Assembly: GCA_947179485.1 (NCBI GenBank)
Contig: OX359247.1
Coordinates: 52,239,131 to 52,303,130, forward strand
DNA: 64,000 nucleotides
Origin: Allacma fusca
Taxonomy: Eukaryota > Arthropoda > Collembola > Symphypleona > Sminthuridae
Direction of reading: 5' to 3'
Below the pieces are notes generated by a model, which ran no database searches, was not told the origin of the DNA, and saw nothing but the letters and a program-made list of their open reading frames with translations. This document shows, piece after piece, positions 1 to 53,499 of this stretch; positions within the stretch are counted from its first letter, which is position 1; each line of letters begins with the position of its first letter. Made by a program: the position numbers and the translations under genes.

Positions 1-1084
1 GTTTCAAATTGCAGTTTCAAATTGCAGTTTCAAATTGCAGTTTCAAAATGCAGTTTCAAATTGCAGTTTCAAATTGCAGTTTCAAATTGCAGTTTCAAAT
101 TGCAGTTTCAAATTGCAGTTTCAAATTGCAGTTTCAAATTGCAGTTTCAAATTGCAGTTTCAAATTGCAGTTTCAAATTGCAGTTTCAAATTGCAGTTTC
201 AAATTGCAGTTTCAAATTGCAGTTTCAAATTGCAGTTTCAAATTGCAGTTTCAAATTGCAGTTTCAAATTGCAGTTTCAAATTGCAGTTTCAAATTGCAG
301 TTTCAAATTGCAGTTTCAAATTGCAGTTTCAAATTGCAGTTTCAAATTGCAGTTTCAAATTGCAGTTTCAAATTGCAGTTTCAAATTGCAGTTTCAAATT
401 GCAGTTTCAAATTGCAGTTTCAAATTGCAGTTTCAAATTGCAGTTTCAAATTGCAGTTTCAAATTGCAGTTTCAAATTGCAGTTTCAAATTGCAGTTTCA
501 AATTGCAGTTTCAAATTGCAGTTTCAAATTGCAGTTTCAAATTGCAGTTTCAAATTGCAGTTTCAAATTGCAGTTTCAAATTGCAGTTTCAAATTGCAGT
601 TTCAAATTGCAGTTTCAAATTGCAGTTTCAAATTGCAGTTTCAAATTGCAGTTTCAAATTGCAGTTTCAAATTGCAGTTTCAAATTGCAGTTTCAAATTG
701 CAGTTTCAAATTGCAGTTTCAAATTGCAGTTTCAAATTGCAGTTTCAAATTGCAGTTTCAAATTGCAGTTTCAAATTGCAGTTTCAAATTGCAGTTTCAA
801 ATTGCAGTTCCAAATTGCAGTTTCAAATTGCAGTTTCAAATTGCAGTTTCAAATTGCAGTTTCAAATTGCAGTTTCAAATTGCAGTTTCAAATTGCAGTT
901 TCAAATTGCAGTTTCAAATTGCAGTTTCAAATTGCAGTTTCAAATTGCAGTTTCAAATTGCAGTTTCAAATTGCAGTTTCAAATTGCAGTTTCAAATTGC
1001 AGTTTCAAATTGCAGTTTCAAATTGCAGTTTCAAATTGCAGTTTCAAATTGCAGTTTCAAATTGCAGTTTCAAATTGCAGTTTC
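1..1084 (+). repeat. Near-pure consensus block, left edge
   Basis: Apart from a T-to-A change at 49 region (unit reads caaaatgca, giving an ATG at 48-50) and a T-to-C change at 810 (gttcc), every unit I read here equals the consensus. Bases 51-809 form an unbroken run of about 58 identical units. Such uniformity suggests recent amplification or collapse during assembly. No gene or regulatory site is visible. Confidence 0.85.
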
Positions 1085-2407
1085 GCATTGCAGTTTCAAA
1101 TTGCAGTTTCAAATTGCAGTTTCAAATTGCAGTTTCGCATTGCAGTTTCAAATTGCAGTTTCAAATTGCAGTTTCAAATTGCAGTTTCGCATTGCAGTTT
1201 CAAATTGCAGTTTCAAATTGCAATTTCAAATTGCAGTTTCAAATTGCAGTTTCAAATTGCAGTTTCAAATTGCAGTTTCAAATTGCAGTTTCAAATTGCA
1301 GTTTCAAATTGCAGTTTCAAATTGCAGTTTCAAATTGCAGTTTCAAATTGCAGTTTCAAATTGCAGTTTCAAATTGCAGTTTCAAATTGCAGTTTCAAAT
1401 TGCAGTTTCAAATTGCAGTTTCAAATTGCAGTTTCAAATTGCAGTTTCAAATTGCAGTTTCAAATTGCAGTTTCAAATTGCAGTTTCAAATTGCAGTTTC
1501 AAATTGCAGTTTCAAATTGCAGTTCCAAATTGCAGTTTCAAATTGCAGTTTCAAATTGCAGTTTCAAATTGCAGTTTCAAATTGCAGTTTCAAATTGCAG
1601 TTTCAAATTGCAGTTTCGCATGGCAGTTTTAAATTGCAGTTTCAAATTGCAGTTTCGCATTGCAATTTCAAATTGCAGTTTCAAATTGCAGTTTCAAATT
1701 GCAGTTTCAAATTGCAGTTTCAAATTGCAGTTTCAAATTGCAGTTTCAAATTGCAGTTTCAAATTGCAGTTTCAAATTGCAGTTTCAAATTGCAGTTTCA
1801 AATTGCAGTTTCAAATTGCAGTTTCAAATTGCAGTTTCAAATTGCAGTTTCAAATTGCAGTTTCAAATTGCAGTTTCAAATTGCAGTTTCAAATTGCAGT
1901 TTCAAATTGCAGTTTCAAATTGCAGTTTCGCATTGCAGTTTCAAATTGCAGTTTCAAATTGCAGTTTCAAATTGCAGTTTCAAATTGCAGTTTCAAATTG
2001 CAGTTTCAAATTGCAGTTTCGCATTGCAGTTTCAAATTGCAGTTTCAAATTGCAGTTTCAAATTGCAGTTTCGCATTGCAGTTTCAAATTGCAGTTTCAA
2101 ATTGCAGTTTCAAATTGCAGTTTCGCATTGCAGTTTCAAATTGCAGTTTCAAATTGCAATTTCAAATTGCAGTTTCAAATTGCAGTTTCAAATTGCAGTT
2201 TCAAATTGCAGTTTCAAATTGCAGTTTCAAATTGCAGTTTCAAATTGCAGTTTCAAATTGCAGTTTCAAATTGCAGTTTCAAATTGCAGTTTCAAATTGC
2301 AGTTTCAAATTGCAGTTTCAAATTGCAGTTTCAAATTGCAGTTTCAAATTGCAGTTTCAAATTGCAGTTTCAAATTGCAGTTTCAAATTGCAGTTTCAAA
2401 TTGCAGT

Positions 2408-2433
2408 AGTACTCTGCGTTGATACCACTGCTT
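2408..2433 (-). other. Untrimmed amplification adapter (artefact)
   Basis: These 26 bases are unrelated to the satellite. Read on the - strand they equal the SMART-type PCR adapter that begins AAGCAGTGGTATCAACGC, with the GTAC end and one further T next to the repeat; the + strand ends with gttgataccactgctt at 2418-2433. From memory this oligo is used in cDNA synthesis and in PacBio amplified low-input genomic libraries. Its orientation puts the genuine insert on the left (bases up to 2407). It is library DNA, not part of the genome. The match is by recall, but 26 consecutive matching bases make chance very unlikely. Confidence 0.95.
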
Positions 2434-2450
2434 AACATCGTCGTGTCGTG
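2434..2450 (-). other. Sequencing barcode remnant plus ligation base (artefact)
   Basis: After a single A at 2434 (fits T/A ligation), 2435-2450 reads acatcgtcgtgtcgtg. Its reverse complement CACGACACGACGATGT is a 16-mer without homopolymers, and I recall it as PacBio barcode bc1020; the number should be confirmed. The order on the - strand (barcode, T, amplification adapter, T, insert) is that of a barcoded, PCR-amplified SMRTbell library. Beyond the barcode one would expect the hairpin, but the contig jumps straight to satellite at 2451 (unit base 7), while the left side stopped at unit base 2. The junction was therefore made by the assembler or by a chimeric read. Confidence 0.85.
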
Positions 2451-4538
2451 AATTGCAGTTTCAAATTGCAGTTTCAAATTGCAGTTTCAAATTGCAGTTC
2501 CAAATTGCAGTTTCAAATTGCAGTTTCAAATTGCAGTTTCAAATTGCAGTTTCAAATTGCAGTTTCAAATTGCAGTTTCAAATTGCAGTTTCGCATGGCA
2601 GTTTCAAATTGCAGTTTCAAATTGCAGTTTCGCATTGCAATTTCAAATTGCAGTTTCAAATTGCAGTTTCAAATTGCAGTTTCAAATTGCAGTTTCAAAT
2701 TGCAGTTTCAAATTGCAGTTTCAAATTGCAGTTTCAAATTGCAGTTTCAAATTGCAGTTTCAAATTGCAGTTTCAAATTGCAGTTTCAAATTGCAGTTTC
2801 AAATTGCAGTTTCAAATTGCAGTTTCAAATTGCAGTTTCAAATTGCAGTTTCAAATTGCAGTTTCAAATTGCAGTTTCAAATTGCAGTTTCAAATTGCAG
2901 TTTCAAATTGCAGTTTCAAATTGCAGTTCCAAATTGCAGTTTCAAATTGCAGTTTCAAATTGCAGTTTCAAATTGCAGTTTCAAATTGCAGTTTCAAATT
3001 GCAGTTTCAAATTGCAGTTTCAAATTGCAGTTTCAAATTGCAGTTTCAAATTGCAGTTTCAAATTGCAGTTTCAAATTGCAGTTTCAAATTGCAGTTTCA
3101 AATTGCAGTTTCGCATTGCAGTTTCAAATTGCAGTTTCAAATTGCAGTTTCAAATTGCAGTTTCAAATTGCAGTTTCAAATTGCAGTTTCAAATTGCAGT
3201 TTCAAATTGCAGTTTCAAATTGCAGTTTCAAATTGCAGTTTCGCATTGCAGTTTCAAATTGCAGTTTCAAATTGCAGTTTCAAATTGCAGTTTCGCATTG
3301 CAGTTTCAAATTGCAGTTTCAAATTGCAGTTTCAAATTGCAGTTTCGCATTGCAGTTTCAAATTGCAGTTTCAAATTGCAATTTCAAATTGCAGTTTCAA
3401 ATTGCAGTTTCAAATTGCAGTTTCAAATTGCAGTTTCAAATTGCAGTTTCAAATTGCAGTTTCAAATTGCAGTTTCAAATTGCAGTTTCAAATTGCAGTT
3501 TCAAATTGCAGTTTCAAATTGCAGTTTCAAATTGCAGTTTCAAATTGCAGTTTCAAATTGCAGTTTCAAATTGCAGTTTCGCATTGCAGTTTCAAATTGC
3601 AGTTTCAAATTGCAGTTTCAAATTGCAGTTTCAAATTGCAGTTTCAAATTGCAGTTTCAAATTGCAGTTTCAAATTGCAGTTTCAAATTGCAGTTTCGCA
3701 TTGCAGTTTCAAATTGCAGTTTCAAATTGCAGTTTCAAATTGCAGTTTCAAATTGCAGTTTCAAATTGCAGTTTCAAATTGCAGTTTCGCATTGCAGTTT
3801 CAAATTGCAGTTTCAAATTGCAGTTTCAAATTGCAGTTTCGCATTGCAGTTTCAAATTGCAGTTTCAAATTGCAGTTTCAAATTGCAGTTTCGCATTGCA
3901 GTTTCAAATTGCAGTTTCAAATTGCAATTTCAAATTGCAGTTTCAAATTGCAGTTTCAAATTGCAGTTTCAAATTGCAGTTTCAAATTGCAGTTTCAAAT
4001 TGCAGTTTCAAATTGCAGTTTCAAATTGCAGTTTCAAATTGCAGTTTCAAATTGCAGTTTCAAATTGCAGTTTCAAATTGCAGTTTCAAATTGCAGTTTC
4101 AAATTGCAGTTTCAAATTGCAGTTTCAAATTGCAGTTTCAAATTGCAGTTTCAAATTGCAGTTTCAAATTGCAGTTTCAAATTGCAGTTTCAAATTGCAG
4201 TTCCAAATTGCAGTTTCAAATTGCAGTTTCAAATTGCAGTTTCAAATTGCAGTTTCAAATTGCAGTTTCAAATTGCAGTTTCAAATTGCAGTTTCGCATG
4301 GCAGTTTCAAATTGCAGTTTCAAATTGCAGTTTCGCATTGCAATTTCAAATTGCAGTTTCAAATTGCAGTTTCAAATTGCAGTTTCAAATTGCAGTTTCA
4401 AATTGCAGTTTCAAATTGCAGTTTCAAATTGCAGTTTCAAATTGCAGTTTCAAATTGCAGTTTCAAATTGCAGTTTCAAATTGCAGTTTCAAATTGCAGT
4501 TTCGCATTGCAGTTTCAAATTGCAGTTTCAAATTGCAA

Positions 4539-6187
4539 TTTCAAATTGCAGTTTCAAATTGCAGTTTCAAATTGCAGTTTCAAATTGCAGTTTCAAATTG
4601 CAGTTTCAAATTGCAGTTTCAAATTGCAGTTTCAAATTGCAGTTTCAAATTGCAGTTTCAAATTGCAGTTTCAAATTGCAGTTTCAAATTGCAGTTTCAA
4701 ATTGCAGTTTCAAATTGCAGTTTCAAATTGCAGTTTCAAATTGCAGTTTCAAATTGCAGTTTCAAATTGCAGTTTCAAATTGCAGTTTCAAATTGCAGTT
4801 TCAAATTGCAGTTTCAAATTGCAGTTTCAAATTGCAGTTTCAAATTGCAGTTTCAAATTGCAGTTTCAAATTGCAGTTTCAAATTGCAGTTTCAAATTGC
4901 AGTTTCAAATTGCAGTTTCAAATTGCAGTTTCAAATTGCAGTTTCAAATTGCAGTTTCAAATTGCAGTTTCAAATTGCAGTTTCAAATTGCAGTTTCAAA
5001 TTGCAGTTTCAAATTGCAGTTTCAAATTGCAGTTTCAAATTGCAGTTTCAAATTGCAGTTTCAAATTGCAGTTTCAAATTGCAGTTTCAAATTGCAGTTT
5101 CAAATTGCAGTTTCAAATTGCAGTTTCAAATTGCAGTTTCAAATTGCAGTTTCAAATTGCAGTTTCAAATTGCAGTTTCAAATTGCAGTTTCAAATTGCA
5201 GTTTCAAATTGCAGTTTCAAATTGCAGTTTCAAATTGCAGTTTCAAATTGCAGTTTCAAATTGCAGTTTCAAATTGCAGTTTCAAATTGCAGTTTCAAAT
5301 TGCAGTTTCAAATTGCAGTTTCAAATTGCAGTTTCAAATTGCAGTTTCAAATTGCAGTTTCAAATTGCAGTTTCAAATTGCAGTTTCAAATTGCAGTTTC
5401 AAATTGCAGTTTCAAATTGCAGTTTCAAATTGCAGTTTCAAATTGCAGTTTCAAATTGCAGTTTCAAATTGCAGTTTCAAATTGCAGTTTCAAATTGCAG
5501 TTTCAAATTGCAGTTTCAAATTGCAGTTTCAAATTGCAGTTTCAAATTGCAGTTTCAAATTGCAGTTTCAAATTGCAGTTTCAAATTGCAGTTTCAAATT
5601 GCAGTTTCAAATTGCAGTTTCAAATTGCAGTTTCAAATTGCAGTTTCAAATTGCAGTTTCAAATTGCAGTTTCAAATTGCAGTTTCAAATTGCAGTTTCA
5701 AATTGCAGTTTCAAATTGCAGTTTCAAATTGCAGTTTCAAATTGCAGTTTCAAATTGCAGTTTCAAATTGCAGTTTCAAATTGCAGTTTCAAATTGCAGT
5801 TTCAAATTGCAGTTTCAAATTGCAGTTTCAAATTGCAGTTTCAAATTGCAGTTTCAAATTGCAGTTTCAAATTGCAGTTTCAAATTGCAGTTTCAAATTG
5901 CAGTTTCAAATTGCAGTTTCAAATTGCAGTTTCAAATTGCAGTTTCAAATTGCAGTTTCAAATTGCAGTTTCAAATTGCAGTTTCAAATTGCAGTTTCAA
6001 ATTGCAGTTTCAAATTGCAGTTTCAAATTGCAGTTTCAAATTGCAGTTTCAAATTGCAGTTTCAAATTGCAGTTTCAAATTGCAGTTTCAAATTGCAGTT
6101 TCAAATTGCAGTTTCAAATTGCAGTTTCAAATTGCAGTTTCAAATTGCAGTTTCAAATTGCAGTTTCAAATTGCAGTTTCAAATTGC
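4539..6187 (+). repeat. Longest invariant block (about 127 units)
   Basis: Between the gcaattt unit beginning at 4538 and the first gcgtttt unit at 6187-6188 I found no deviation from the 13-bp consensus over about 1.65 kb. This is the longest homogeneous stretch in the window. It is either a recent local expansion or a place where near-identical reads were merged. No other feature is visible. Confidence 0.8.
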
Positions 6188-7010
6188 GTTTTCAAATTGC
6201 AGTTTCAAATTGCAGTTTCAAATTGCAGTTTCAAATTGCAGTTTCAAATTGCAGTTTCAAATTGCGTTTTCAAATTGCAGTTTCAAATTGCAGTTTCAAA
6301 TTGCAGTTTCAAATTGCAGTTTCAAATTGCAGTTTCAAATTGCGTTTTCAAATTGCAGTTTCAAATTGCAGTTTCAAATTGCAGTTTCAAATTGCGTTTT
6401 CAAATTGCAGTTTCAAATTGCAGTTTCAAATTGCAGTTTCAAATTGCGTTTTCAAATTGCAGTTTCAAATTGCAGTTTCAAATTGCGTTTTCAAATTGCA
6501 GTTTCAAATTGCAGTTTCAAATTGCCGTTTCAAATTGCAGTTTCAAATTGCAGTTTCAAATTGCAGTTTCAAAATGCAGTTTCAAACTGCAGTTTCAAAT
6601 TGCAGTTTCAAATTGCAGTTTCAAATTGCAGTTTCAAATTGCGTTTTCAAATTGCAGTTTCAAATTGCAGTTTCAAATTGCAGTTTCAAATTGCAGTTAT
6701 AAATTGCAGTTTCAAATTGCAGTTTCAAATTGCAGTTTCAAATTGCAGTTATAAATTGCAGTTTCAAATTGCAGTTTCAAATTGCAGTTTCAAATTGCAG
6801 TTTCAAATTGCAGTTTCAAATTGCAGTTTCAAATTGCAGTTTCAAATTGCAGTTTCAAATTGCAGTTTCAAATTGCAGTTTCAAATTGCAGTTTCAAATT
6901 GCAGTTTCAAATTGCAGTTTCAAATTGCGTTTTCAAATTGCAGTTTCAAATTGCAGTTTCAAATTGCAGTTTCAAATTGCGTTTTCAAATTGCAGTTTCA
7001 AATTGCGTTT
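6188..7010 (+). repeat. First cgtttt-variant domain
   Basis: Units reading ttgcgttttc instead of ttgcagtttc appear at 6188 and then repeatedly to about 7005, often 3-7 units apart. One-off variants are mixed in: ttgccgttt near 6525, caaaatgc and caaactgc near 6572-6590, and gttata near 6697 and 6750. The cgtttt form carries a CpG that the consensus lacks. It differs by two substitutions or by loss of an A with gain of a T. Confidence 0.8.
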
Positions 7011-7039
7011 TCAAATTGCAGTTTCAAATTGCAGTTTCA

Positions 7040-10000
7040 AATTGCAGTTTCAAATTGCAGTTTCAAATTGCAGTTTCAAATTGCAGTTTCAAATTGCAGT
7101 TTCAAATTGCAGTTTCAAATTGCAGTTTCAAATTGCAGTTTCAAATTGCAGTTTCAAATTGCAGTTTCAAATTGCAGTTTCAAATTGCAGTTTCAAATTG
7201 CAGTTTCAAATTGCAGTTTCAAATTGCAGTTTCAAATTGCAGTTTCAAATTGCAGTTTCAAATTGCAGTTTCAAATTGCAGTTTCGCATTGCAGTTTCAA
7301 ATTGCAGTTTCAAATTGCAGTTTCAAATTGCAGTTTCAAATTGCAGTTTCAAATTGCAGTTTCAAATTGCAGTTTCAAATTGCAGTTTCGCATTGCAGTT
7401 TCAAATTGCAGTTTCAAATTGCAGTTTCAAATTGCAGTTTCAAATTGCGTTTTCAAATTGCAGTTTCAAATTGCAGTTTCAAATTGCGTTTTCAAATTGC
7501 AGTTTCAAATTGCAGTTTCAAATTGCAGTTTCAAATTGCAGTTTCAAATTGCAGTTTCGCATTGCAGTTTCAAATTGCAGTTTCAAATTGCAGTTTCAAA
7601 TTGCAGTTTCGCATTGCAGTTTCAAATTGCAGTTTCAAATTGCAATTTCAAATTGCAGTTTCAAATTGCAGTTTCAAATTGCAGTTTCAAATTGCAGTTT
7701 CAAATTGCAGTTTCAAATTGCAGTTTCAAATTGCAGTTTCAAATTGCAGTTTCAAATTGCAGTTTCAAATTGCAGTTTCAAATTGCAGTTTCAAATTGCA
7801 GTTTCAAATTGCAGTTCCAAATTGCAGTTTCAAATTGCAGTTTCAAATTGCAGTTTCAAATTGCAGTTTCAAATTGCAGTTTCAAATTGCAGTTTCAAAT
7901 TGCAGTTTCAAATTGCAGTTTCAAATTGCAGTTTCAAATTGCAGTTTCAAATTGCAGTTTCAAATTGCAGTTTCAAATTGCAGTTTCAAATTGCAGTTTC
8001 GCATTGCAGTTTCAAATTGCAGTTTCAAATTGCAGTTTCAAATTGCAGTTTCAAATTGCAGTTTCAAATTGCAGTTTCAAATTGCAGTTTCAAATTGCAG
8101 TTTCGCATTGCAGTTTCAAATTGCAGTTTCAAATTGCAGTTTCAAATTGCAGTTTCAAATTGCAGTTTCAAATTGCAGTTTCAAATTGCAGTTTCGCATT
8201 GCAGTTTCAAATTGCAGTTTCAAATTGCAGTTTCAAATTGCAGTTTCGCATTGCAGTTTCAAATTGCAGTTTCAAATTGCAGTTTCAAATTGCAGTTTCG
8301 CATTGCAGTTTCAAATTGCAGTTTCAAATTGCAATTTCAAATTGCAGTTTCAAATTGCAGTTTCAAATTGCAGTTTCAAATTGCAGTTTCAAATTGCAGT
8401 TTCAAATTGCAGTTTCAAATTGCAGTTTCAAATTGCAGTTTCAAATTGCAGTTTCAAATTGCAGTTTCAAATTGCAGTTTCAAATTGCAGTTTCAAATTG
8501 CAGTTTCAAATTGCAGTTTCAAATTGCAGTTTCAAATTGCAGTTCCAAATTGCAGTTTCAAATTGCAGTTTCAAATTGCAGTTTCAAATTGCAGTTTCAA
8601 ATTGCAGTTTCAAATTGCAGTTTCAAATTGCAGTTTCGCATGGCAGTTTCAAATTGCAGTTTCAAATTGCAGTTTCGCATTGCAATTTCAAATTGCAGTT
8701 TGAAATTGCAGTTTCAAATTGCAGTTTCAAATTGCAGTTTCAAATTGCAGTTTCAAGTTGCAGTTTCAAATTGCAGTTTCAAATTGCAGTTTCAAATTGC
8801 AGTTTCAAATTGCAGTTTCAAATTGCAGTTTCAAATTGCAGTTTCAAATTGCAGTTTCAAATTGCAGTTTCAAATTGCAGTTTCAAATTGCAGTTTCAAA
8901 TTGCAGTTTCAAATTGCAGTTTCAAATTGCAGTTTCAAATTGCAGTTTCAAATTGCAGTTTCAAATTGCAGTTTCAAATTGCAGTTTCAAATTGCAGTTT
9001 CAAATTGCAGTTCCAAATTGCAGTTTCAAATTGCAGTTTCAAATTGCAGTTTCAAATTGCAGTTTCAAATTGCAGTTTCAAATTGCAGTTTCAAATTGCA
9101 GTTTCGCATTGCAATTTCAAATTGCAGTTTCAAATTGCAGTTTCGCATTGCAATTTCAAATTGCAGTTTCAAATTGCAGTTATAAATTGCAGTTTCAAAT
9201 TGCAGTTTCAAATTGCAGTTTCAAATTGCAGTTTCAAATTGCAGTTATAAATTGCAGTTTCAAATTGCAGTTTCAAATTGCAGTTTCAAATTGCAGTTTC
9301 AAATTGCAGTTTCAAATTGCAGTTTCAAATTGCAGTTTCAAATTGCAGTTTCAAATTGCAGTTTCAAATTGCAGTTTCAAATTGCAGTTTCAAATTGCAG
9401 TTTCAAATTGCAGTTTCAAATTGCAGTTTCAAATTGCAGTTTCAAATTGCAGTTTCAAATTGCAGTTTCGCATTGCAGTTTCAAATTGCAGTTTCAAATT
9501 GCAGTTTCAAATTGCAGTTTCAAATTGCAGTTTCAAATTGCAGTTTCAAATTGCAGTTTCAAATTGCAGTTTCGCATTGCAGTTTCAAATTGCAGTTTCA
9601 AATTGCAGTTTCAAATTGCAGTTTCAAATTGCGTTTTCAAATTGCAGTTTCAAATTGCAGTTTCAAATTGCGTTTTCAAATTGCAGTTTCAAATTGCAGT
9701 TTCAAATTGCAGTTTCAAATTGCAGTTTCAAATTGCAGTTTCGCATTGCAGTTTCAAATTGCAGTTTCAAATTGCAGTTTCAAATTGCAGTTTCGCATTG
9801 CAGTTTCAAATTGCAGTTTCAAATTGCAATTTCAAATTGCAGTTTCAAATTGCAGTTTCAAATTGCAGTTTCAAATTGCAGTTTCGCATTGCAGTTTCAA
9901 ATTGCAGTTTCAAATTGCAGTTTCAAATTGCAGTTTCAAATTGCAGTTTCAAATTGCAGTTTCAAATTGCAGTTTCAAATTGCAGTTTCAAATTGCAGTT

Positions 10001-13000
10001 CCAAATTGCAGTTTCAAATTGCAGTTTCAAATTGCAGTTTCAAATTGCAGTTTCAAATTGCAGTTTCAAATTGCAGTTTCAAATTGCAGTTTCAAATTGC
10101 AGTTTCAAATTGCAGTTTCAAATTGCAGTTTCAAATTGCAGTTTCAAATTGCAGTTTCAAATTGCAGTTTCGCATTGCAGTTTCAAATTGCAGTTTCAAA
10201 TTGCAGTTTCAAATTGCAGTTTCAAATTGCAGTTTCAAATTGCAGTTTCAAATTGCAGTTTCAAATTGCAGTTTCGCATTGCAGTTTCAAATTGCAGTTT
10301 CAAATTGCAGTTTCAAATTGCAGTTTCAAATTGCAGTTTCAAATTGCAGTTTCAAATTGCAGTTTCGCATTGCAGTTTCAAATTGCAGTTTCAAATTGCA
10401 GTTTCAAATTGCAGTTTCGCATTGCAGTTTCAAATTGCAGTTTCAAATTGCAGTTTCAAATTGCAGTTTCGCATTGCAGTTTCAAATTGCAGTTTCAAAT
10501 TGCAATTTCAAATTGCAGTTTCAAATTGCAGTTTCAAATTGCAGTTTCAAATTGCAGTTTCAAATTGCAGTTTCAAATTGCAGTTTCAAATTGCAGTTTC
10601 AAATTGCAGTTTCAAATTGCAGTTTCAAATTGCAGTTTCAAATTGCAGTTTCAAATTGCAGTTTCAAATTGCAGTTTCAAATTGCAGTTTCAAATTGCAG
10701 TTTCAAATTGCAGTTCCAAATTGCAGTTTCAAATTGCAGTTTCAAATTGCAGTTTCAAATTGCAGTTTCAAATTGCAGTTTCAAATTGCAGTTTCAAATT
10801 GCAGTTTCGCATGGCAGTTTCAAATTGCAGTTTCAAATTGCAGTTTCGCATTGCAATTTCAAATTGCAGTTTCAAATTGCAGTTTCAAATTGCAGTTTCA
10901 AATTGCAGTTTCAAATTGCAGTTTCAAATTGCAGTTTCAAATTGCAGTTTCAAATTGCAGTTTCAAATTGCAGTTTCAAATTGCAGTTTCAAATTGCAGT
11001 TTCAAATTGCAGTTTCAAATTGCAGTTTCAAATTGCAGTTTCAAATTGCAGTTTCGCATTGCAGTTTCAAATTGCAGTTTCAAATTGCAGTTTCAAATTG
11101 CAGTTTCAAATTGCAGTTTCAAATTGCAGTTTCAAATTGCAGTTTCAAATTGCAGTTTCGCATTGCAGTTTCAAATTGCAGTTTCAAATTGCAATTTCAA
11201 ATTGCAGTTTCAAATTGCAGTTTCAAATTGCAGTTTCAAATTGCAGTTTCAAATTGCAGTTTCAAATTGCAGTTTCAAATTGCAGTTTCAAATTGCAGTT
11301 TCAAATTGCAGTTTCGCATTGCAGTTTCGCATTGCAGTTTCAAATTGCAGTTTCAAATTGCAGTTTCAAATAGCAGTTTCAAATTGCAGTTTCAAATTGC
11401 AGTTTCAAATTGCAGTTTCAAATTGCAGTTTCGCATTGCAGTTTCAAATTGCAGTTTCAAATTGCAGTTTCAAATTGCAGTTTCAAATTGCAGTTTCAAA
11501 TTGCAGTTTCAAATTGCAGTTTCAAATTGCAGTTTCAAATTGCAGTTTCAAATTGCAGTTTCAAATTGCAGTTTCAAATTGCAGTTTCGCATTGCAGTTT
11601 CAAATTGCAGTTTCAAATTGCAGTTTCAAATTGCAATTTCAAATTGCAGTTTCGCATTGCAGTTTCAAATTGCAGTTTCAAATTGCAGTTTCAAATTGCA
11701 GTTTCAAATTGCAGTTTCAAATTGCAGTTTCAAATTGCAGTTTCAAATTGCAGTTTCAAATTGCAGTTTCAAATTGCAGTTTCAAATTGCAGTTTCAAAT
11801 TGTGTTTTCAAATTGCAGTTTCAAATTGCAGTTTCAAATTGCAGTTTCAAATTGCAGTTTCAAATTGCAGTTTCAAATTGCAGTTTCAAATTGCAGTTTC
11901 GCATTGCAGTTTCAAATTGCAGTTTCAAATTGCAGTTTCAAATTGCAGTTTCAAATTGCAGTTTCAAATTGCAGTTTCAAATTGCAGTTTCAAATTGCAG
12001 TTTCGCATTGCAGTTTCAAATTGCAGTTTCAAATTGCAGTTTCAAATTGCAGTTTCAAATTGCAGTTTCAAATTGCAGTTTCAAATTGCAGTTTCGCATT
12101 GCAGTTTCAAATTGCAGTTTCAAATTGCAGTTTCAAATTGCAGTTTCGCATTGCAGTTTCAAATTGCAGTTTCAAATTGCAGTTTCAAATTGCAGTTTCG
12201 CATTGCAGTTTCAAATTGCAGTTTCAAATTGCAATTTCAAATTGCAGTTTCAAATTGCAGTTATAAATTGCAGTTTCAAATTGCAGTTTCAAATTGCAGT
12301 TTCAAATTGCAGTTTCAAATTGCAGTCTCAAATTGCAGTTTCAAATTGCAGTTTCAAATTGCAGTTTCAAATTGCAGTTTGAATTGCAGTTTCGCATTGC
12401 AATTTCAAATTGCAGTTTCAAATTGCAGTTTCAAATTGCAGTTATAAATTGCAGTTTCAAATTGCAGTTTCAAATTGCAGTTTCAAATTGCAGTTTCAAA
12501 TTGCAGTTTCAAATTGCAGTTTCAAATTGCAGTTTCAAATTGCAGTTTCAAATTGCAGTTTCAAATTGCAGTTTCAAATTGCAGTTTCAAATTGCAGTTT
12601 CAAATTGCAGTTTCAAATTGCAGTTTCAAATTGCAGTTTCAAATTGCAGTTTCAAATTGCAATTTCAAATTGCAGTTTCAAATTGCAGTTCAAATTGCAG
12701 TTTCGCATTGCAGTTTCAAATTGCAGTTTCAAATTGCAGTTTCAAATTGCAGTTTCAAATTGCAGTTTCAAATTGCAGTTTCAAATAGCAGTTTCAAATT
12801 GCAGTTTCAAATTGCAGTTTCAAATTGCAGTTTCAAATTGCAGTTTCAAATTGCAGTTTCAAATTGCAGTTTCGCATTGCAGTTTCAAATTGCAGTTTCA
12901 AATTGCAGTTTCGCATTGCAGTTTCAAATTGCAGTTATAAATTGCAGTTTCAAATTGCAGTTTCAAATTGCAGTTTCAAATTGCAGTTTCAAATTGCAGT
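7040..13000 (+). repeat. Second gcat domain with repeated composite blocks
   Basis: The three-gcat cassette returns near 8196-8333, 10367-10504 and 12097-12232, and a two-gcat form lies near 7559-7645. The gttcc / gcatggc / gcattgcaattt composite recurs near 8543 and 10712. cgtttt units are present at about 7449-7490 and 9632-9671. Two 12-bp units break the register: gtttgaattgca at 12377 and one lacking a T near 12689. The first tgtttt unit of the window is at about 11811. Confidence 0.75.
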
Positions 13001-13518
13001 TTCAAATTGCAGTTTCAAATTGCAGTTTCAAATTGCAGTTTCAAATTGCAATTTCAAATTGCAGTTTCGCATTGCAGTTTCAAATTGCAGTTTCAAATTG
13101 CAGTTTCAAATTGCAGTTTCAAATTGCAGTTTCAAATTGCAGTTTCAAATTGCAGTTTCAAATTGCAGTTTCAAATTGCAGTTTCAAATTGCAGTTTCAA
13201 ATTGCAGTTTCAAATTGCAGTTTCAAATTGCAGTTTCAAATTGCAGTTTCAAATTGCAGTTTCAAATTGCAGTTTCAAATTGCAGTTTCAAATTGCAGTT
13301 TCAAATTGCAGTTTCAAATTGCAGTTTCAAATTGCAGTTTCGCATTGCAATTTCAAATTGCAGTTTCAAATTGCAGTTTCAAATTGCAGTTTCAAATTGC
13401 AGTTTCAAATTGCAGTTTCAAATTGCAGTTTCAAATTGCAGTTTCAAATTGCAGTTTCAAATTGCAGTTTCAAATTGCAGTTTCAAATTGCAGTTTCAAA
13501 TTGCAGTTTCAAATTGCA

Positions 13519-14250
13519 GTTTGAATTGCAGTTTCGCATTGCAATTTCAAATTGCAGTTTCAAATTGCAGTTTCAAATTGCAGTTATAAATTGCAGTTTC
13601 AAATTGCAGTTTCAAATTGCAGTTTCAAATTGCAGTTTCAAATTGCAGTTTCAAATTGCAGTTTCAAATTGCAGTTTCAAATTGCAGTTTCAAATTGCAG
13701 TTTCAAATTGCAGTTTCAAATTGCAGTTTAAAATTGCAGTTTCAAATTGCAGTTTCAAATTGCAGTTTCAAATTGCAGTTTCAAATTGCAGTTTCGCATT
13801 GCAGTTTCAAATTGCAGTTTCAAATTGCAGTTTCGTATTGCAGTTTCAAATTGCAGTTTCAAATTGAAGTTTCGCATGGCAGTTTCAAATTGCAGTTTCA
13901 AATTGCAGTTTCGCATTGCAATTTTAAATTGCAGTTTCAAATTGCAGTTTCAAATTGCAGTTATAAATTGCAGTTTCAAATTGCAGTTTCAAATTGCAGT
14001 TTCAAATTCCAGTTTCAAATTGCAGTTTCAAATTGCAGTTTCAAATTGCAGTTTCAAATTGCAGTTTCAAATTGCGTTTTCAAATTGCAGTTTCAAATTG
14101 CAGTTTCAAATTGCAGTTTCAAATTGCAGTTTCAAATTGCAGTTTCAAATTGCAGTTTCAAATTGCAGTTTTAAATTGCAGTTTCAAATTGCAGTTTCAA
14201 ATTGCAGTTTCAAATTGCAGTTTCAAATTGCGTTTTTAAATTGCAATTTC
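13519..14250 (+). repeat. Segmental duplication, copy 1
   Basis: Rare markers run in the same order here and in 18275-18995: the 12-bp unit gtttgaattgca (13519 and 18275), gttata (13583 and 18339), cgtattg and a gaagtttcgcatggc unit (about 13833-13875), gcaatttta (about 13920), aaattccag (about 14008), and gcgtttt just before gcaattt (14231 and 18974). The offset is 4756 bp at the left and 4743 bp at the right, so one unit was gained or lost. Part of the block, the cgtattg to gcaatttta stretch, has a third copy at about 21000-21150. Confidence 0.8.
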
Positions 14251-17200
14251 AAATTGCAGTTTCAAATTGCAGTTTCAAATTGCAGTTTCAAATTGCAGTT
14301 TCAAATTGCAGTTTCAAATTGCAGTTTCAAATTGCAGTTTCAAATTGCAGTTTCAAATTGCAGTTTCAAATTGCAGTTTCAAATTGCAGTTTCAAATTGC
14401 AGTTTCAAATTGCAGTTTCAAATAGCAGTTTCAAATTGCAGTTTCAAATTGCAGTTTCAAATTGCAGTTTCAAATTGCAGTTTCGCATTGCAGTTTCAAA
14501 TTGCAGTTTCAAATTGCAGTTTCGCATTGCAGTTTCAAATTGCAGTTATAAATTGCAGTTTCAAATTGCAGTTTCAAATTGCAGTTTCAAATTGCAGTTT
14601 CAAATTGCAGTTTCAAATTGCAGTTTCAAATTGCAGTTTCAAATTGCAGTTTCAAATTGCAGTTTCAAATTGCAGTTTCAAATTGCAGTTTCAAATTGCA
14701 GTTTCAAATTGCAGTTTCAAATTGCAGTTTCAAATTGCAGTTTCAAATTGCAGTTTCAAATTGCAGTTTCAAATTGCAGTTTCAAATTGCAGTTTCAAAT
14801 TGCAGTTTCAAATTGCAGTTTCAAATTGCAGTTTCAAATTGCAGTTTCAAATTGCAGTTTCAAATTGCAGTTTCAAATTGCAGTTTCAAATTGCAGTTTC
14901 AAATTGCGTTTTCAAATTGCAGTTTCAAATTGCAGTTTCAAATTGCGTTTTCAAATTGCAGTTTCAAATTGCAGTTTCAAATTGCAGTTTCAAATTGCAG
15001 TTTCGCATGGCAGTTTCAAATTGCAGTTTCAAATTGCAGTTTCGCATTGCAATTTCAAATTGCAGTTTCAAATTGCAGTTTCAAATTGCAGTTTCAAATT
15101 GCAGTTTCAAATTGCAGTTTCAAATTGCAGTTTCAAATTGCAGTTTCAAATTGCAGTTTCAAATTGCAGTTTCAAATTGCAGTTTCAAATTGCAGTTTCA
15201 AATTGCAGTTTCAAATTGCAGTTTCAAATTGCAGTTTCAAATTGCAGTTTCAAATTGCAGTTTCAAATTGCAGTTTCAAATTGCAGTTATAAATTGCAGT
15301 TTCAAATTGCAGTTTCAAATTGCAGTTTCAAATTGCAGTTTCAAATTGCAGTTTCAAATTGCAGTTTCAAATTGCAGTTTCAAATTGCAGTTTCAAATTG
15401 CAGTTTCAAATTGCAGTTTCAAATTGCAGTTTCAAATTGCAGTTTCAAATTGCAGTTTCAAATTGCAGTTTCAAATTGTGTTTTCAAATTGCAGTTTCAA
15501 ATTGCAGTTTCAAATTGCAGTTTCAAATTGCAGTTTCAAATTGCAGTTTCAAATTGCAGTTTCAAATTGCAGTTTCAAATTGCAGTTTCAAATTGCAGTT
15601 TCAAATTGCAGTTTCAAATTGCAGTTTCGCATTGCAGTTTCAAATTGCAGTTTCAAATTGCAGTTTCAAATTGCAGTTTCAAATTGCAGTTTCAAATTGC
15701 AGTTTCAAATTGCAGTTTCAAATTGCAGTTTCAAATTGCAGTTTCAAATTGCAGTTTCAAATTGCAGTTTCAAATTGCAGTTTCAAATTGCAGTTTGAAT
15801 TGCAGTTTCGCATTGCAATTTCAAATTGCAGTTTCAAATTGCAGTTTCAAATTGCAGTTTCAAATTGCAGTTTCGCATTGCAGTTTCAAATTGCAGTTTC
15901 AAATTGCAGTTTCAAATTGCAGTTTCGCATTGCAGTTTCAAATTGCAGTTTCAAATTGCAATTTCAAATTGCAGTTTCAAATTGCAGTTTCAAATTGCAG
16001 TTTCAAATTGCAGTTTCAAATTGCAGTTTCAAATTGCAGTTTCAAATTGCAGTTTCAAATTGCAGTTTCGCATTGCAGTTTCAAATAGCAGTTTCAAATT
16101 GCAGTTTCAAATTGCAGTTTCAAATTGCAGTTTCAAATTGCAGTTTCAAATTGCAGTTTCGCATTGCAGTTTCAAATTGCAGTTTCAAATTGCAGTTTCA
16201 AATTGCAGTTTCAAATTGCAGTTTCAAATTGCAGTTTCAAATTGCAGTTTCAAATTGCAGTTTCAAATTGCAGTTTCGCATTGCAGTTTCAAATAGCAGT
16301 TTCAAATAGCAGTTTCAAATTGCAGTTTCAAATTGCAGTTTCAAATTGCAGTTTCGCATTGCAGTTTCAAATTGCAGTTTCAAATTGCAGTTTCAAATTG
16401 CAGTTTCGCATTGCAGTTTCAAATTGCAGTTTCAAATTGCAGTTTCAAATTGCAGTTTCAAATTGCAGTTTTAAATTGCAGTTTCAAATTGCAGTTTCAA
16501 ATTGCAGTTTCGCATTGCAGTTTCAAATTGCAGTTTCAAATTGCAGTTTCAAATTGTAATTTCAAATTGCAGTTTCGCATTGCAGTTTCAAATTGCAGTT
16601 TCAAATTGCAGTTTCAAATTGCAGTTTCAAATTGCAGTTTCAAATTGCAGTTTCAAATTGCAGTTTCAAACTGCAGTTTCAAATTGCAGTTTCAAATTGC
16701 AGTTTCAAATTGTGTTTTCAAATTGCAGTTTCAAATTGCAGTTTCAAATTGCAGTTTCAAATTGCAGTTTCAAATTGCAGTTTCAAATTGCAGTTTCAAA
16801 TTGCAGTTTCAAATTGCAGTTTCAAATTGCAGTTTCAAATTGCAGTTTCGCATTGCAGTTTCAAATTGCAGTTTCAAATTGCAGTTTCAAATTGCAGTTT
16901 CAAAATGCAGTTTCAAATTGCAGTTTCAAATTGCAGTTTCAAATTGCAGTTTCGCATTGCAGTTTCAAATTGCAGTTTCGCATTGCAGTTTCAAATTGCA
17001 GTTTCAAATTGCAGTTTCAAATTGCAGTTTCAAATTGCAGTTTCAAATTGCAGTTTCAAATTGCAGTTTCAAATTGCAGTTTCGCATTGCAGTTTCAAAT
17101 TGCAGTTTTAAATTGCAGTTTCAAATTGCAGTTTCGCATTGCAGTTTCAAATTGCAGTTTCAAATTGCAGTTTCAAATTGCAGTTTCGCATTGCAGTTTC

Positions 17201-18274
17201 AAATTGCAGTTTCAAATTGCAATTTCAAATTGCAGTTTCAAATTGCAGTTTCAAATTGCAGTTTCGCATTGCAGTTTCAAATTGCAGTTTCAAATTGCAG
17301 TTTCAAATAGCAGTTTCAAATAGCAGTTTCAAATTGCAGTTTCAAATTGCAGTTTCAAATTGCAGTTTCAAATTGCAGTTTCGCATTGCAGTTTCAAATT
17401 GCAGTTTCAAATTGCAGTTTCAAATTGCAGTTTCGCATTGCAGTTTCAAATTGCAGTTTCAAATTGCAGTTTCAAATTGCAGTTACGCATTGCAGTTTCA
17501 AATTGCAGTTTCAAATTGCAGTTTCAAATTGCAGTTTCGCATTGCAGTTTCAAATTGCAGTTTCAAATTGCAGTTTCAAATTGCAATTTCAAATTGCAGT
17601 TTCGCATTGCAGTTTCAAATTGCAGTTTCAAATTGCAGTTTCAAATTGCAGTTTCAAATTGCAGTTTCAAATTGCAGTTTCAAATTGCAGTTTCAAATTG
17701 CAGTTTCAAATTGCAGTTTCAAATTGCAGTTTCAAATTGCAGTTTCAAATTGCAGTTTCAAATTGCAGTTTCAAATTGCAGTTTCAAATTGCAGTTTCAA
17801 ATTGCAGTTTCAAATTGCAGTTTCAAATTGCAGTTTCAAATTGCAGTTTCAAATTGCAGTTTCAAATTGCAGTTTCAAATTGCAGTTTCAAATTGCAGTT
17901 TCAAATTGCAGTTTCAAATTGCAGTTATAAATTGCAGTTTCAAATTGCAGTTTCAAATTGCAGTTTCAAATTGCAGTTTCAAATTGCAGTTTCAAATTGC
18001 AGTTTCAAATTGCAGTTTCAAATTGCAGTTTCAAATTGCAGTTTCAAATTGCAGTTTCAAATTGCAGTTTCGCATTGCAATTTCAAATTGCAGTTTCAAA
18101 TTGCAGTTTCAAATTGCAGTTATAAATTGCAGTTTCAAATTGCAGTTTCAAATTGCAGTTTCAAATTGCAGTTTCAAATTGCAGTTTCAAATTGCAGTTT
18201 CAAATTGCAGTTTCAAATTGCAGTTTCAAATTGCAGTTTCAAATTGCAGTTTCAAATTGCAGTTTCAAATTGCA

Positions 18275-18995
18275 GTTTGAATTGCAGTTTCGCATTGCAA
18301 TTTCAAATTGCAGTTTCAAATTGCAGTTTCAAATTGCAGTTATAAATTGCAGTTTCAAATTGCAGTTTCAAATCGCAGTTTCAAATTGAAGTTTCAAATT
18401 GCAGTTTCAAATTGCAGTTTCAAATTGCAGTTTCAAATTGCAGTTTCAAATTGCAGTTTCAAATTGCAGTTTCAAATTGCAGTTTCAAATTGCAGTTTCA
18501 AATTGCAGTTTCAAATTGCAGTTTCAAATTGCAGTTTCGCATTGCAGTTTCAAATTGCAGTTTCAAATTGCAGTTTCGTATTGCAGTTTCAAATTGCAGT
18601 TTCAAATTGAAGTTTCGCATGGCAGTTTCAAATTGCAGTTTCAAATTGCAGTTTCGCATTGCAATTTTAAATTGCAGTTTCAAATTGCAGTTTCAAATTG
18701 CAGTTATAAATTGCAGTTTCAAATTGCAGTTTCAAATTGCAGTTTCAAATTCCAGTTTCAAATTGCAGTTTCAAATTGCAGTTTCAAATTGCAGTTTCAA
18801 ATTGCAGTTTCAAATTGCGTTTTCAAATTGCAGTTTCAAATTGCAGTTTCAAATTGCAGTTTCAAATTGCAGTTTCAAATTGCAGTTTCAAATTGCAGTT
18901 TCAAATTGCAGTTTTAAATTGCAGTTTCAAATTGCAGTTTCAAATTGCAGTTTCAAATTGCAGTTTCAAATTGCGTTTTCAAATTGCAATTTCAA
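18275..18995 (+). repeat. Segmental duplication, copy 2
   Basis: This is the partner of 13519-14250, with the same order of rare variant units. It differs by one unit in length and by point changes such as aaatcgcag and ttgaagttt near 18373-18392. The two copies are separated by unrelated variant patterns, so this is not a simple adjacent tandem duplication. Confidence 0.8.
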
Positions 18996-20678
18996 ATTGC
19001 AGTTTCAAATTGCAGTTTCAAATTGCAGTTTCAAATTGCAGTTTCAAATTGCAGTTTCAAATTGCAGTTTCAAATTGTGTTTTCAAATTGCAGTTTCAAA
19101 TTGCAGTTTCAAATTGCAGTTTCAAATTGCAGTTTCAAATTGCAGTTTCAAATTGCAGTTTCAAATTGCAGTTTCAAATTGCAGTTTCAAATTGCAGTTT
19201 CAAATTGCAGTTTCAAATTGCAGTTTCAAATAGCAGTTTCAAATTGCAGTTTAAAATTGTGTTTTCAAATTGCAGTTTCAAATTGCAGTTTCAAATTGCA
19301 GTTTCAAATTGCAGTTTCAAATTGCAGTTTCAAATTGCAGTTTCAAATTGCAGTTTCAAATTGCAGTTTCAAATTGCAGTTTCAAATTGCAGTTTCAAAT
19401 TGCAGTTTCAAATTGCAGTTTCAAATTGCAGTTTCAAATTGCAGTTTCAAATTGCAGTTTCAAATTCCAGTTTCAAATTGCAGTTTCGCATTGCAGTTTC
19501 AAATTGCAGTTTCAAATTGCAGTTTCAAATTGCAGTTTCAAATTGCAGTTTCAAATAGCAGTTTCAAATTGCAGTTTCAAATTGCAGTTTCAATTTGCAG
19601 TTTCAAATTGCAGTTTCAAATTGCAGTTTCAAATTGCAGTTTCGCATTGCAGTTTCAAATTGCAGTTTCAAATTGCAGTTTCGCATTGCAGTTTCAAATT
19701 GCAGTTATAAATTGCAGTTTCAAATTGCAGTTTCAAATTGCAGTTTCAAATTGCAGTTTCAAATTGCAGTTTCAAATTGCAGTTTCAAATTGCAGTTTTA
19801 AATTGCAGTTTCAAATTGCAGTTTCAAATTGCAGTTTCAAATTGCAGTTTCAAATTGCGTTTTCAAATTGCAATTTCAAATTGCAGTTTCAAATTGCAGT
19901 TTCAAATTGCAGTTTCAAATTGCAGTTTCAAATTGCAGTTTCAAATTGCAGTTTCAAATTGTGTTTTCAAATTGCAGTTTCAAATTGCAGTTTCAAATTG
20001 CAGTTTCAAATTGCAGTTTCAAATTGCAGTTTCAAATTGCAGTTTCAAATTGCAGTTTCAAATTGCAGTTTCAAATTGCAGTTTCAAATTGCAGTTTCAA
20101 ATTGCAGTTTCAAATAGCAGTTTCAAATTGCAGTTTAAAATTGTGTTTTCAAATTGCAGTTTCAAATTGCAGTTTCAAATTGCAGTTTCAAATTGCAGTT
20201 TCAAATTGCAGTTTCAAATTGCAGTTTCAAATTGCAGTTTCAAATTGCAGTTTCAAATTGCAGTTTCAAATTGCAGTTTCAAATTGCAGTTTCAAATTGC
20301 AGTTTCAAATTGCAGTTTCAAATTGCAGTTTCAAATTGCAGTTTCAAATTCCAGTTTCAAATTGCAGTTTCGCATTGCAGTTTCAAATTGCAGTTTCAAA
20401 TTGCAGTTTCAAATTGCAGTTTCAAATTGCAGTTTCAAATAGCAGTTTCAAATTGCAGTTTCAAATTGCAGTTTCAATTTGCAGTTTCAAATTGCAGTTT
20501 CAAATTGCAGTTTCAAATTGCAGTTTCGCATTGCAGTTTCAAATTGCAGTTTCAAATTGCAGTTTCGCATTGCAGTTTCAAATTGCAGTTATAAATTGCA
20601 GTTTCAAATTGCAGTTTCAAATTGCAGTTTCAAATTGCAGTTTCAAATTGCAGTTTCAAATTGCAGTTTCAAATTGCA
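18911..20678 (+). repeat. 884-bp tandem duplication
   Basis: Two adjacent copies (about 18911-19794 and 19795-20678) share every rare marker at an offset of exactly 884 bp (68 units): gtttta at 18911/19795, gcgtttt then gcaattt at 18974/19858, gtttaaaattgtg near 19250/20134, aaattccag near 19467/20351, gtttcaattt near 19590/20474 and gttata at 19704/20588. I saw no difference between the copies among the markers checked, so the event is recent. Outer limits are approximate because the flanks are the same satellite. Confidence 0.85.
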
Positions 20679-21899
20679 GTTTCAAATTGCAGTTTCAAAT
20701 TGCAGTTTCAAATTGCAGTTTCAAATTGCAGTTTCAAATTGCAGTTTCAAATTGCAGTTTCAAATTGCAGTTTCAAATTGCAGTTTCAAATTGCAGTTTC
20801 AAATTGCGTTTTCAAATTGCAGTTTCAAATTGCAGTTTCAAATTGCGTTTTCAAATTGCAGTTTCAAATTGCAGTTTCAAATTGCAGTTTCAAATTGCAG
20901 TTTCGCATGGCAGTTTCAAATTGCAGTTTCAAATTGCAGTTTCGCATTGCAATTTCAAATTGCAGTTTCAAATTGCAAATTCAAATTGCAGTTTCAAATT
21001 GCAGTTTCGCATTGCAGTTTCAAATTGCAGTTTCAAATTGCAGTTTCGTATTGCAGTTTCAAATTGCAGTTTCAAATTGAAGTTTCGCATGGCAGTTTCA
21101 AATTGCAGTTTCAAATTGCAGTTTCGCATTGCAATTTTAAATTGCAGTTTCAAATTGCAATTTTAAATTGCAGTTTCAAATTGCAGTTTCAAATTGCAGT
21201 TATAAATTGCAGTTTCAAATTGCAGTTTCAAATTGCAGTTTCAAATTGCAGTTTCAAATTGCAGTTTCAAATTGCAGTTTCAAATTGCAGTTTCAAATTG
21301 CAGTTTCAAATTGCAGTTTCAAATTGCAGTTTCAAATTGCAGTTTCAAATTGCAGTTTCAAATTGCAGTTTCAAATTGCAGTTTCAAATTGCAGTTTCAA
21401 ATTGCAGTTTCAAATTGCAGTTTCAAATTGCAGTTTCAAATTGCAGTTTCAAATTGCAGTTTCAAATTGCAGTTTCAAATTGCAGTTTCAAATTGCAGTT
21501 TCAAATTGCAGTTTCAAATTGCAGTTTCAAATTGCAGTTTCAAATTGCAGTTTCAAATTGCAGTTTCAAATTGCAGTTTCAAATTGCAGTTTCAAATTGC
21601 AGTTTGAATTGCAGTTTCGCATTGCAATTTCAAATTGCAGTTTCAAATTGCAGTTTCAAATTGCAGTTATAAATTGCAGTTTCAAATTGCAGTTTCAAAT
21701 TGCAGTTTCAAATTGCAGTTATAAATTGCAGTTTCAAATTGCAGTTTCAAATTGCAGTTTCAAATTGCAGTTTCAAATTGCAGTTTCGCATTGCAGTTTC
21801 AAATTGCAGTTTCAAATTGCAGTTTCAAATTGCAGTTTCGCATTGCAGTTTCAAATTGCAGTTTCAAATTGCAATTTCAAATTGCAGTTTCAAATTGCA

Positions 21900-24800
21900 G
21901 TTTCAAATTGCAGTTTCAAATTGCAGTTTCAAATTGCAGTTTCAAATTGCAGTTTCAAATTGCAGTTTCAAATTGCAGTTTCAAATTGCAGTTTCAAATT
22001 GTGTTTTCAAATTGCAGTTTCAAATTGCAGTTTCAAATTGCAGTTTCAAATTGCAGTTTCAAATTGCAGTTTCAAATTGTGTTTTCAAATTGTGTTTTAA
22101 AATTGCAGTTTCAAATTGTAGTTTCAAATTGCAGTTTCAAATTGTGTTTTCAAATTGCAGTTTCAAATTGCAGTTTCAAATTGCAGTTTTAAATTGCAGT
22201 TTCAAATTGCAGTTTCAAATTGCAGTTTCAAATTGCAGTTTCAAATTGCAGTTTCAAATTGCAGTTTCAAATTGCAGTTTCAAATTGCAGTTTCAAATTG
22301 CAGTTTCAAATTGCAGTTTCAAATTGCAGTTTCAAATTGCAGTTTCAAATTGCAGTTTCAAATTGCAGTTTCAAATTGCAGTTTCAAATTGCAGTTTCAA
22401 ATTGCAGTTTCAAATTGCAGTTTCGCATTGCAGTTTCAAATTGCAGTTTCAAATTGCAGTTTCAAATTGCAGTTTCAAATAGCAGTTTCAAATTGCAGTT
22501 TCAAATTGCAGTTTCAAATTGCAGTTTCAAATTGCAGTTTCGCATTGCAGTTTCGCATTGCAGTTTCAAATTGCAGTTTCAAATTGCAGTTTCGCATTGC
22601 AGTTTCAAATTGCAGTTTCAAATTGCAGTTTCGCATTGCAGTTTCAAATTGCAGTTTTGCATTGCAGTTTCAAATTGCAGTTTCAAATTGCAGTTTCGCA
22701 TTGCAGTTTCAAATTGTGTTTTCAAATTGCAGTTTCAAATTGCAGTTTCAAATTGCAGTTTCAAATTGTGTTTTCAAATTGCAGTTTCAAATTGCAGTTT
22801 CAAATTGCAGTTTCAAATTGTGTTTTCAAATTGTGTTTTCAAATTGCAGTTTCAAATTGCAGTTTCAAATTGCAGTTTCAAATTGCAGTTTCAAATTGTG
22901 TTTTCAAATTGCAGTTTCAAATTGCAGTTTCAAATTGCAGTTTCAAATATCAGTTTCAAATTGCAGTTTCAAATTGCAGTTTCAAATTGCAGTTTTAAAT
23001 TGCAGTTTCAAATTGCAGTTTCAAATTGCAGTTTCAAATTGCAGTTTCAAATTGCAGTTTCAAATTGCAGTTTCAAATTGCAGTTTCAAATTGCAGTTTC
23101 AAATTGCAGTTTCAAATTGCAGTTTCAAATTGCAGTTTCAAATTGCAGTTTCAAATTGCAGTTTCAAATTGCAGTTTCAAATTGCAGTTTCAAATTGCAG
23201 TTTCAAATTGCAGTTTCGCATTGCAGTTTCAAATTGCAGTTTCAAATTGCAGTTTCAAATTGCAGTTTCAAATAGCAGTTTCAAATTGCAGTTTCAAATT
23301 GCAGTTTCAAATTGCAGTTTCAAATTTCGGTTTCGCATTGCAGTTTCAAATTGCAGTTTCAAATTGCAGTTTCGCATTGCAGTTTCAAATTGCAGTTTCA
23401 AATTGCAGTTTCGCATTGCAGTTTCAAATTGCAGTTTTGCATTGCAGTTTCAAATTGCAGTTTCGCACTGCAGTTTAAATTGTGTTTTCAAATTGCAGTT
23501 TCAAATTGCAGTTTCAAATTGCAGTTTCAAATTGTGTTTTCAAATTGCAGTTTCAAATTGCAGTTTCAAATTGCAGTTTCAAATTTCAGTTTCAAATTGT
23601 GTTTTCAAATTGCAGTTTCAAATTACAGTTTCAAATTGCAGTTTCAAATTGCAGTTTCAAATTGTGTTTTCAAATTGCAGTTTCAAATTGTGTTTTAAAA
23701 TTACAGTTTTAAATTGCAGTTTCAAATTGCAGTTTCAAATTGCAGTTTCAAATTGTGTTTTCAAATTGTGTTTTCAAATTGCAGTTTCAAATTGCAGTTT
23801 CAAATTGCAGTTTCAAATTGCAGTTTCAAATTGTGTTTTCAAATTGCAGTTTCAAATTGCAGTTTCAAATTGCAGTTTTAAATTGCAGTTTCAAATTGCA
23901 GTTTCAAATTGCAGTTTCAAATTGCAGTTTCAAATTGCAGTTTCAAATTGCAGTTTCAAATTGCAGTTTCAAATTGCAGTTTCAAATTGCAGTTTCAAAT
24001 TGCAGTTTCGCATTGCAGTTTCAAATTGCAGTTTCAAATTGCAGTTTCAAATTGCAGTTTCAAATTGCAGTTTCAAATTGCAGTTTCAAATTGCAGTTTC
24101 AAATTGCAGTTTCGCATTGCAGTTTCAAATTGCAGTTTCAAATTGCAGTTTCAAATTGCAGTTTCAAATAGCAGTTTCAAATTGCAGGTTCAAATTGCAG
24201 TTTCAAATTGCAGTTTCAAATTGCAGTTTCAAATTGCAGTTTCGCATTGCAGTTTCAAATTGCAGTTTCAAATTGCAGTTTCGCATTGCAGTTTCAAATT
24301 GCAGTTTCAAATTGCAGTTTCGCATTGCAGTTTCAAATTGCAGTTTTGCATTGCAGTTTCAAATTGCAGTTTCAAATTGCAGTTTCGCACTGCAGTTTCA
24401 AATTGTGTTTTCAAATTGCAGTTTCAAATTGCAGTTTCAAATTGCAGTTTCAAATTGTGTTTTCAAATTGCAGTTTCAAATTGCAGTTTCAAATTGCAGT
24501 TTCAAATTTCAGTTTCAAATTGTGTTTTCAAATTGCAGTTTCAAATTACAGTTTCAAATTGCAGTTTCAAATTGCAGTTTCAAATTGTGTTTTCAAATTG
24601 CAGTTTCAAATTGTGTTTTAAAATTACGGTTTTAAATTGCAGTTTCAAATTGCAGTTTCAAATTGCAGTTTCAAATTGTGTTTTCAAATTGTGTTTTCAA
24701 ATTGCAGTTTCAAATTGCAGTTTCAAATTGCAGTTTCAAATTGCAGTTTCAAATTGTGTTTTCAAATTGCAGTTTCAAATTGCAGTTTCAAATTGCAGTT

Positions 24801-31730: not shown

Positions 31731-31739
31731 AAATTGCAG

Positions 31740-40560: not shown

Positions 40561-40585
40561 TGCAGTTTCAAATTGCAGTTTCAAA

Positions 40586-53420: not shown

Positions 53421-53499
53421 TTTCAAATTGCAGTTTCAAATTGCAGTTTCAAATTGCAGTTTCAAATTGCAGTTTCAAATTGCAGTTTCAAATTGCAGT

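Follow-up and report, generated by a model that had tools for sequence, protein, structure and literature searches.

A PacBio amplification adapter and sample barcode embedded in a 13-bp satellite array of Allacma fusca

The insert and its parts

The window analysed here, i.e., the whole 64,000-nucleotide stretch from Allacma fusca (contig OX359247.1), consists of a 13-bp tandem repeat and contains a single clearly non-satellite stretch, namely the 43 bases at 2408-2450. In a wrap-around alignment to the repeat unit, these bases show 23 mismatches, compared to 9 for the next worst separate stretch of 43 bases. Both borders can be read directly: positions 2406-2407 (GT) still belong to the satellite unit, and from 2451 onwards (AATTGCA) the sequence is satellite again. 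Between them we read AGTACTCTGCGTTGATACCACTGCTT at 2408-2433, an A at 2434 and ACATCGTCGTGTCGTG at 2435-2450. The respective features are as follows.

1..64000, plus strand: 13-bp satellite array that carries the insert, unit GTTTCAAATTGCA (Tandem Repeats Finder, wrap-around alignment)
2408..2433, minus strand: SMART-type PCR adapter, 26 bases, AAGCAGTGGTATCAACGCAGAGTACT, present as reverse complement (direct reading, match search, print)
2434..2434, no strand: single A, as expected for the A-tail on a PCR product (direct reading)
2435..2450, minus strand: PacBio barcode bc1020, CACGACACGACGATGT, present as reverse complement (direct reading, match search, print)

That is, satellite is followed by A, adapter, A and barcode, with the barcode outermost, which is the pattern of an untrimmed read end; the first-pass annotation had proposed this order, and it can be read off directly. 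The A at 2408 is the partner of the adapter's 3' T. The A at 2434 presumably results from ligating an A-tailed PCR product to a T-overhang barcoded hairpin adapter, and we take the lone A bases at the insert to be compatible with TA ligation in both steps. Position 2450 is presumed to be the outermost base of the read. Satellite adjoins this base directly and in unchanged orientation and, as the annotation had also stated, without a hairpin in between: with up to 3 mismatches allowed, a SMRTbell hairpin query, the reverse complement of which is printed in the text excerpted from PMC8864876, matches nowhere in the window.

The window was searched for the adapter core and for the 16-mer on both strands, with up to 3 mismatches allowed and 100 shuffles as control. 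The 25-base adapter core (2409-2433) shows one match with 0 mismatches and none in the shuffles (0/100). For the 16-mer, we likewise obtain one match with 0 mismatches, while 1/100 shuffles contains a match. The whole 43-mer has no match among plasmid and phage records (distant mode, E 0.01), and a 26-base piece made of the barcode, a T and the adapter start has no exact match in viral_contigs.

Identity of adapter and barcode

The adapter is identical to AAGCAGTGGTATCAACGCAGAGTACT at 26/26 bases (minus strand, 2408-2433) and the barcode to CACGACACGACGATGT at 16/16 bases (minus strand, 2435-2450). We take the 26-mer to be the PacBio low-input amplification adapter, and a low-input library is presumably its usual use on genomic DNA.

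Both oligos are found in print. In the excerpted text of PMC12613986, the 26-mer is given in its other orientation (AAGCAGTGGTATCAACGCAGAGTACT) as contaminating adapter that was filtered out of a PacBio HiFi library using lima, and the tool used there to mark duplicates is cited under a title that mentions amplified libraries; the term 'ultra-low' is absent from that paper. Table 4 of PMC7962047 lists CACGACACGACGATGT, to which the 16-mer is the reverse complement, as BC1020_Forward, and the bc1020 16-mer also appears, unnamed, as part of barcoded PacBio HiFi primers in two other papers. The first-pass annotation had named a SMART-type adapter, had taken the 16-mer to be bc1020, had suggested a PCR-amplified library as the source and had called for a comparison with known library oligos. 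Both oligos match exactly, such that its reading of an embedded adapter and barcode as well as of a PCR-amplified PacBio library is borne out by the printed sequences.

The adapter core is shared with SMART cDNA work, i.e., literature that combines the adapter with PacBio is by its titles mostly on transcripts, and literature that combines it with ultra-low input is by titles and abstract starts transcriptome or low-cell-number work. No literature naming bc1020 together with ultra-low input and PacBio was found. On the minus strand of our insert, the adapter runs straight into satellite (ACTGCAA). A cDNA (SMART RNA) library is marked by poly-T or template-switch G bases just inside the adapter. 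We rejected a cDNA origin, since such bases are absent where adapter and satellite meet and the contig consists of a genomic array.

The 43-base piece is a technical artefact, i.e., laboratory DNA composed of the amplification adapter and the sample barcode of a PacBio library. Since both oligos match print letter for letter, it is the untrimmed end of a read and has no biological role.

The satellite array and its register

Tandem Repeats Finder reports a single array of period 13 (unit GTTTCAAATTGCA) that spans 1-64000. Unit starts equal 1 mod 13 both left (2406) and right (2458) of the insert. That is, the register is unchanged, as expected for a phase-neutral overwrite in the layout. Since 43 = 3 x 13 + 4 (43 mod 13 = 4), a simple insertion would move the register by 4. 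At a random junction, the register is kept by chance in 1 of 13 cases. If an adapter tail overlies a read whose overlap has been aligned, the register is always preserved. An insertion that preserves the register by coincidence is possible.

Apart from the insert, no register change is observed within 1 to about 12,380. Beyond, a single base is lost at 11 points and gained at 5. The direction of these changes is region-specific, i.e., all losses fall within 12,381-47,575 and all gains within 53,569-58,747. A 14-base monomer, GTTTCAAAATTGTG, is present in 5 copies that coincide with the 5 gains; these therefore probably represent a single old indel that was copied along with its block. The composition of the array also shifts along its length: 152/160 of the GTTTCGCATTGCA monomers are located in the first 32 kb of the window, and GTTTCAAATTGTG, after which TTTTCAAATTGCA usually comes next, is common from about 20 kb onward.

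We also compared the two flanks. All seven variant classes of 1-2407 are seen again among the 17 classes of 2451-12380. Up to 12,380, we found no strong second copy of the left flank (1-2407); the best shared-variant score is 0.32 (the comparison being shortened at the end of the stretch), whereas the maxima obtained with ten control segments range from 0.23 to 0.42. Three satellite units in a row have no exact match in viral_contigs. Searching the literature for the 13-mer unit in six spellings yielded no satellite study by title and abstract start, and the sole literature match to wording on a satellite or tandem repeat of 13 bp concerns Senna tora.

Higher-order blocks

For the block analysis, each monomer type was coded as a letter, with X defined as c...c...c..f and Y as k......l..cf. 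The insert is flanked by one block of each type.

2016..2171, plus strand: block X, left of the insert, monomer string c...c...c..f
2497..2652, plus strand: block Y, right of the insert, monomer string k......l..cf

The window contains 8 X blocks, of which 7 lie in the first 13 kb and the last at 17,079. Full Y blocks number 5 and are confined to the first 13 kb; the one at 1522 holds one additional variant monomer. Each full Y is preceded by an X (5/5), with the following distances.

X 1080 to Y 1522: 34 monomers, uninterrupted, nearest sibling of the insert-spanning pair
X 2016 to Y 2497: 37 monomers (481 bp), across the insert, largest of the five distances
X 3784 to Y 4200: 32 monomers, uninterrupted
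X 8191 to Y 8542: 27 monomers, uninterrupted
X 10362 to Y 10713: 27 monomers, uninterrupted

No full Y follows directly after 3/8 X blocks (3238, 12091, 17079), i.e., the pairing is a tendency and not a strict rule. From the Y count we dropped 5 of the 10 matches to a looser definition (13778, 14909, 18521, 20809, 20991), all of which lie beyond 13 kb, have no k monomer and show no X in the preceding 500 bp. Also left out was a Y-like string near 9,010 that has no l monomer and is preceded by Y rather than X. The pairs 8191-8542 and 10362-10713 show equal spacing and lie 2171 bp apart, which is consistent with a segmental duplication within the array.

When random in-phase joins were simulated for the first 13 kb, 0.83% of 400,000 trials produced X-Y pairs spaced 27-37 monomers apart, where the range had been set so as to cover the observed 37 and the simulated array itself includes the observed pair. 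Since the X-Y order is kept and such pairs are rare in the simulation, we take both sides of the insert to belong to one array region in its natural order. The data fit equally an exact overwrite, with 37 as the true distance, and a slip, be it by a few monomers (e.g., true distance 34) or between like copies; as a counterpoint to an exact overwrite, 37 would correspond to the nearest sibling's 34 plus three added monomers.

The same adapter in public contigs

In an exact-match survey, the 26-mer was present in genome_contigs (12 stretches) and viral_contigs (114 stretches), i.e., at 126 loci, all of which were examined. Of the 136 exact copies in these loci, 112 sit at stretch edges (not necessarily contig ends), 20 are part of dimers and 4 are others. 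Head-to-head dimers or near-dimers off the very edge occur at 12/126 loci (L001-L010, L012, L034 in our numbering). For L002 and L004 the dimer partner is one base short, and L008 and L010 lie less than 100 bases from an edge; head-to-head adapter dimers for comparison are those of L001 and L005-L010. L039 shows a tandem adapter pair close to the edge and L011 one solitary internal copy. The barcode bc1020, the sole barcode searched, is found at 0/126 of these loci.

All 12 genome_contigs loci (L001-L012) come from metagenome-assembled genomes (MAGs) whose isolate names contain FRAM, and 11/12 carry a head-to-head dimer or near-dimer. These contigs resemble our window in having the same adapter inside a contig, for L011 as a solitary copy with other DNA on both sides. 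They differ in their dimers and near-dimers and in the absence of bc1020, while the window shows one adapter plus bc1020.

Errant adapter insertion into an otherwise homologous contig as well as mis-join are error types described in the excerpted text of the HiFiAdapterFilt paper (PMC8864876). The cases given there are alike in that library oligos entered contigs from reads that were not cleaned before assembly. In contrast, they concern the SMRTbell blunt adapter (and the C2 primer), whereas we observe a PCR adapter with a sample barcode and without hairpin.

Discussion

We consider it probable (roughly 0.78) that the end of a bc1020-tagged read from a PCR-amplified genomic PacBio library overwrote about 43 bases of satellite and that the flanks are true neighbours. 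The 43 bases would be the outer end of this one read. Because of the order of the parts, trimming would have removed the hairpin only, such that barcode and PCR adapter stayed on the read. The assembler would then have superimposed the tailed read on a satellite read that overlaps it, in spite of the 43-base overhang. Since the register is kept, the tail would have taken the place of some 43 bases of true satellite sequence. String-graph layouts usually let the first bases of a read supplant the end of the preceding read. The contig was therefore probably built along the minus strand, and the read would begin at 2450 and extend to lower coordinates.

The flanks look collinear because the 13-bp register is exact across the insert and the X-Y order is that of the four other pairs; we infer that the satellite segments on either side are probably truly adjacent. 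The first-pass annotation had concluded that the contig join is artificial, with two molecules or read ends joined. An embedded read end is indeed present, but a join of two unrelated molecules is not supported, as the register is exact and the X-Y order preserved.

An unlikely alternative that still deserves weight is a false join in silico, where a read end was attached to a read from another array copy and the contig was collapsed or expanded at the insert by a slip of whole monomers or whole higher-order units. Read overlaps would be ambiguous where the array is almost pure 13-bp repeat, adapter sites with mis-joins are on record (excerpted text of PMC8864876), and the insert-spanning X-Y distance is the longest of the five. 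Against such a join stand the intact register and block order and the recurrence of all left-flank variant classes on the right, although a slip between like copies is compatible with these as well. That is, the assembler can join wrong copies in a repeat array with register and block order still intact.

We judge it very improbable that two amplified molecules were ligated or template-switched in the laboratory with adapter and barcode trapped between them. Internal adapter pairs resembling ligated amplicons do exist in public data, namely the head-to-head dimers and near-dimers at 12/126 loci with the 26-mer. Here, the junction carries no head-to-head dimer: the single adapter copy of the window is followed by the barcode, with neither second adapter nor hairpin, and the satellite continues in the same orientation and register. 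A hairpin should moreover block ligation beyond the barcode. Since the single adapter is tipped by a barcode, the insert is best taken for the end of a read, and its junction would have been made in the computer. A palindromic read with a missed hairpin was rejected too, for which hairpin, inverted barcode, adapter and insert are expected in sequence, while no hairpin matches and the satellite orientation is unchanged. Real genomic sequence within the satellite, e.g., a short mobile or regulatory element, would fit the only clearly non-satellite stretch of the window but is refuted in practice, as two published library oligos in library order account for 42/43 bases.

Adapter integration in HiFi contigs is an already known error type, as the excerpted text of PMC8864876 documents, and a library oligo inside a contig is by itself no proof of a wrong join. 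Array length at the insert is trustworthy no better than to a few monomers. The relevance of the finding is one of data quality only, i.e., the 43 bases should be masked and the assembly screened for the same adapter and barcode. More speculatively, a barcode-tipped adapter in a satellite array may mark the exact base where the layout hung on one read end; combined with register and block-order tests, such scars could conceivably serve to audit collinear versus slipped satellite joins in low-input assemblies.
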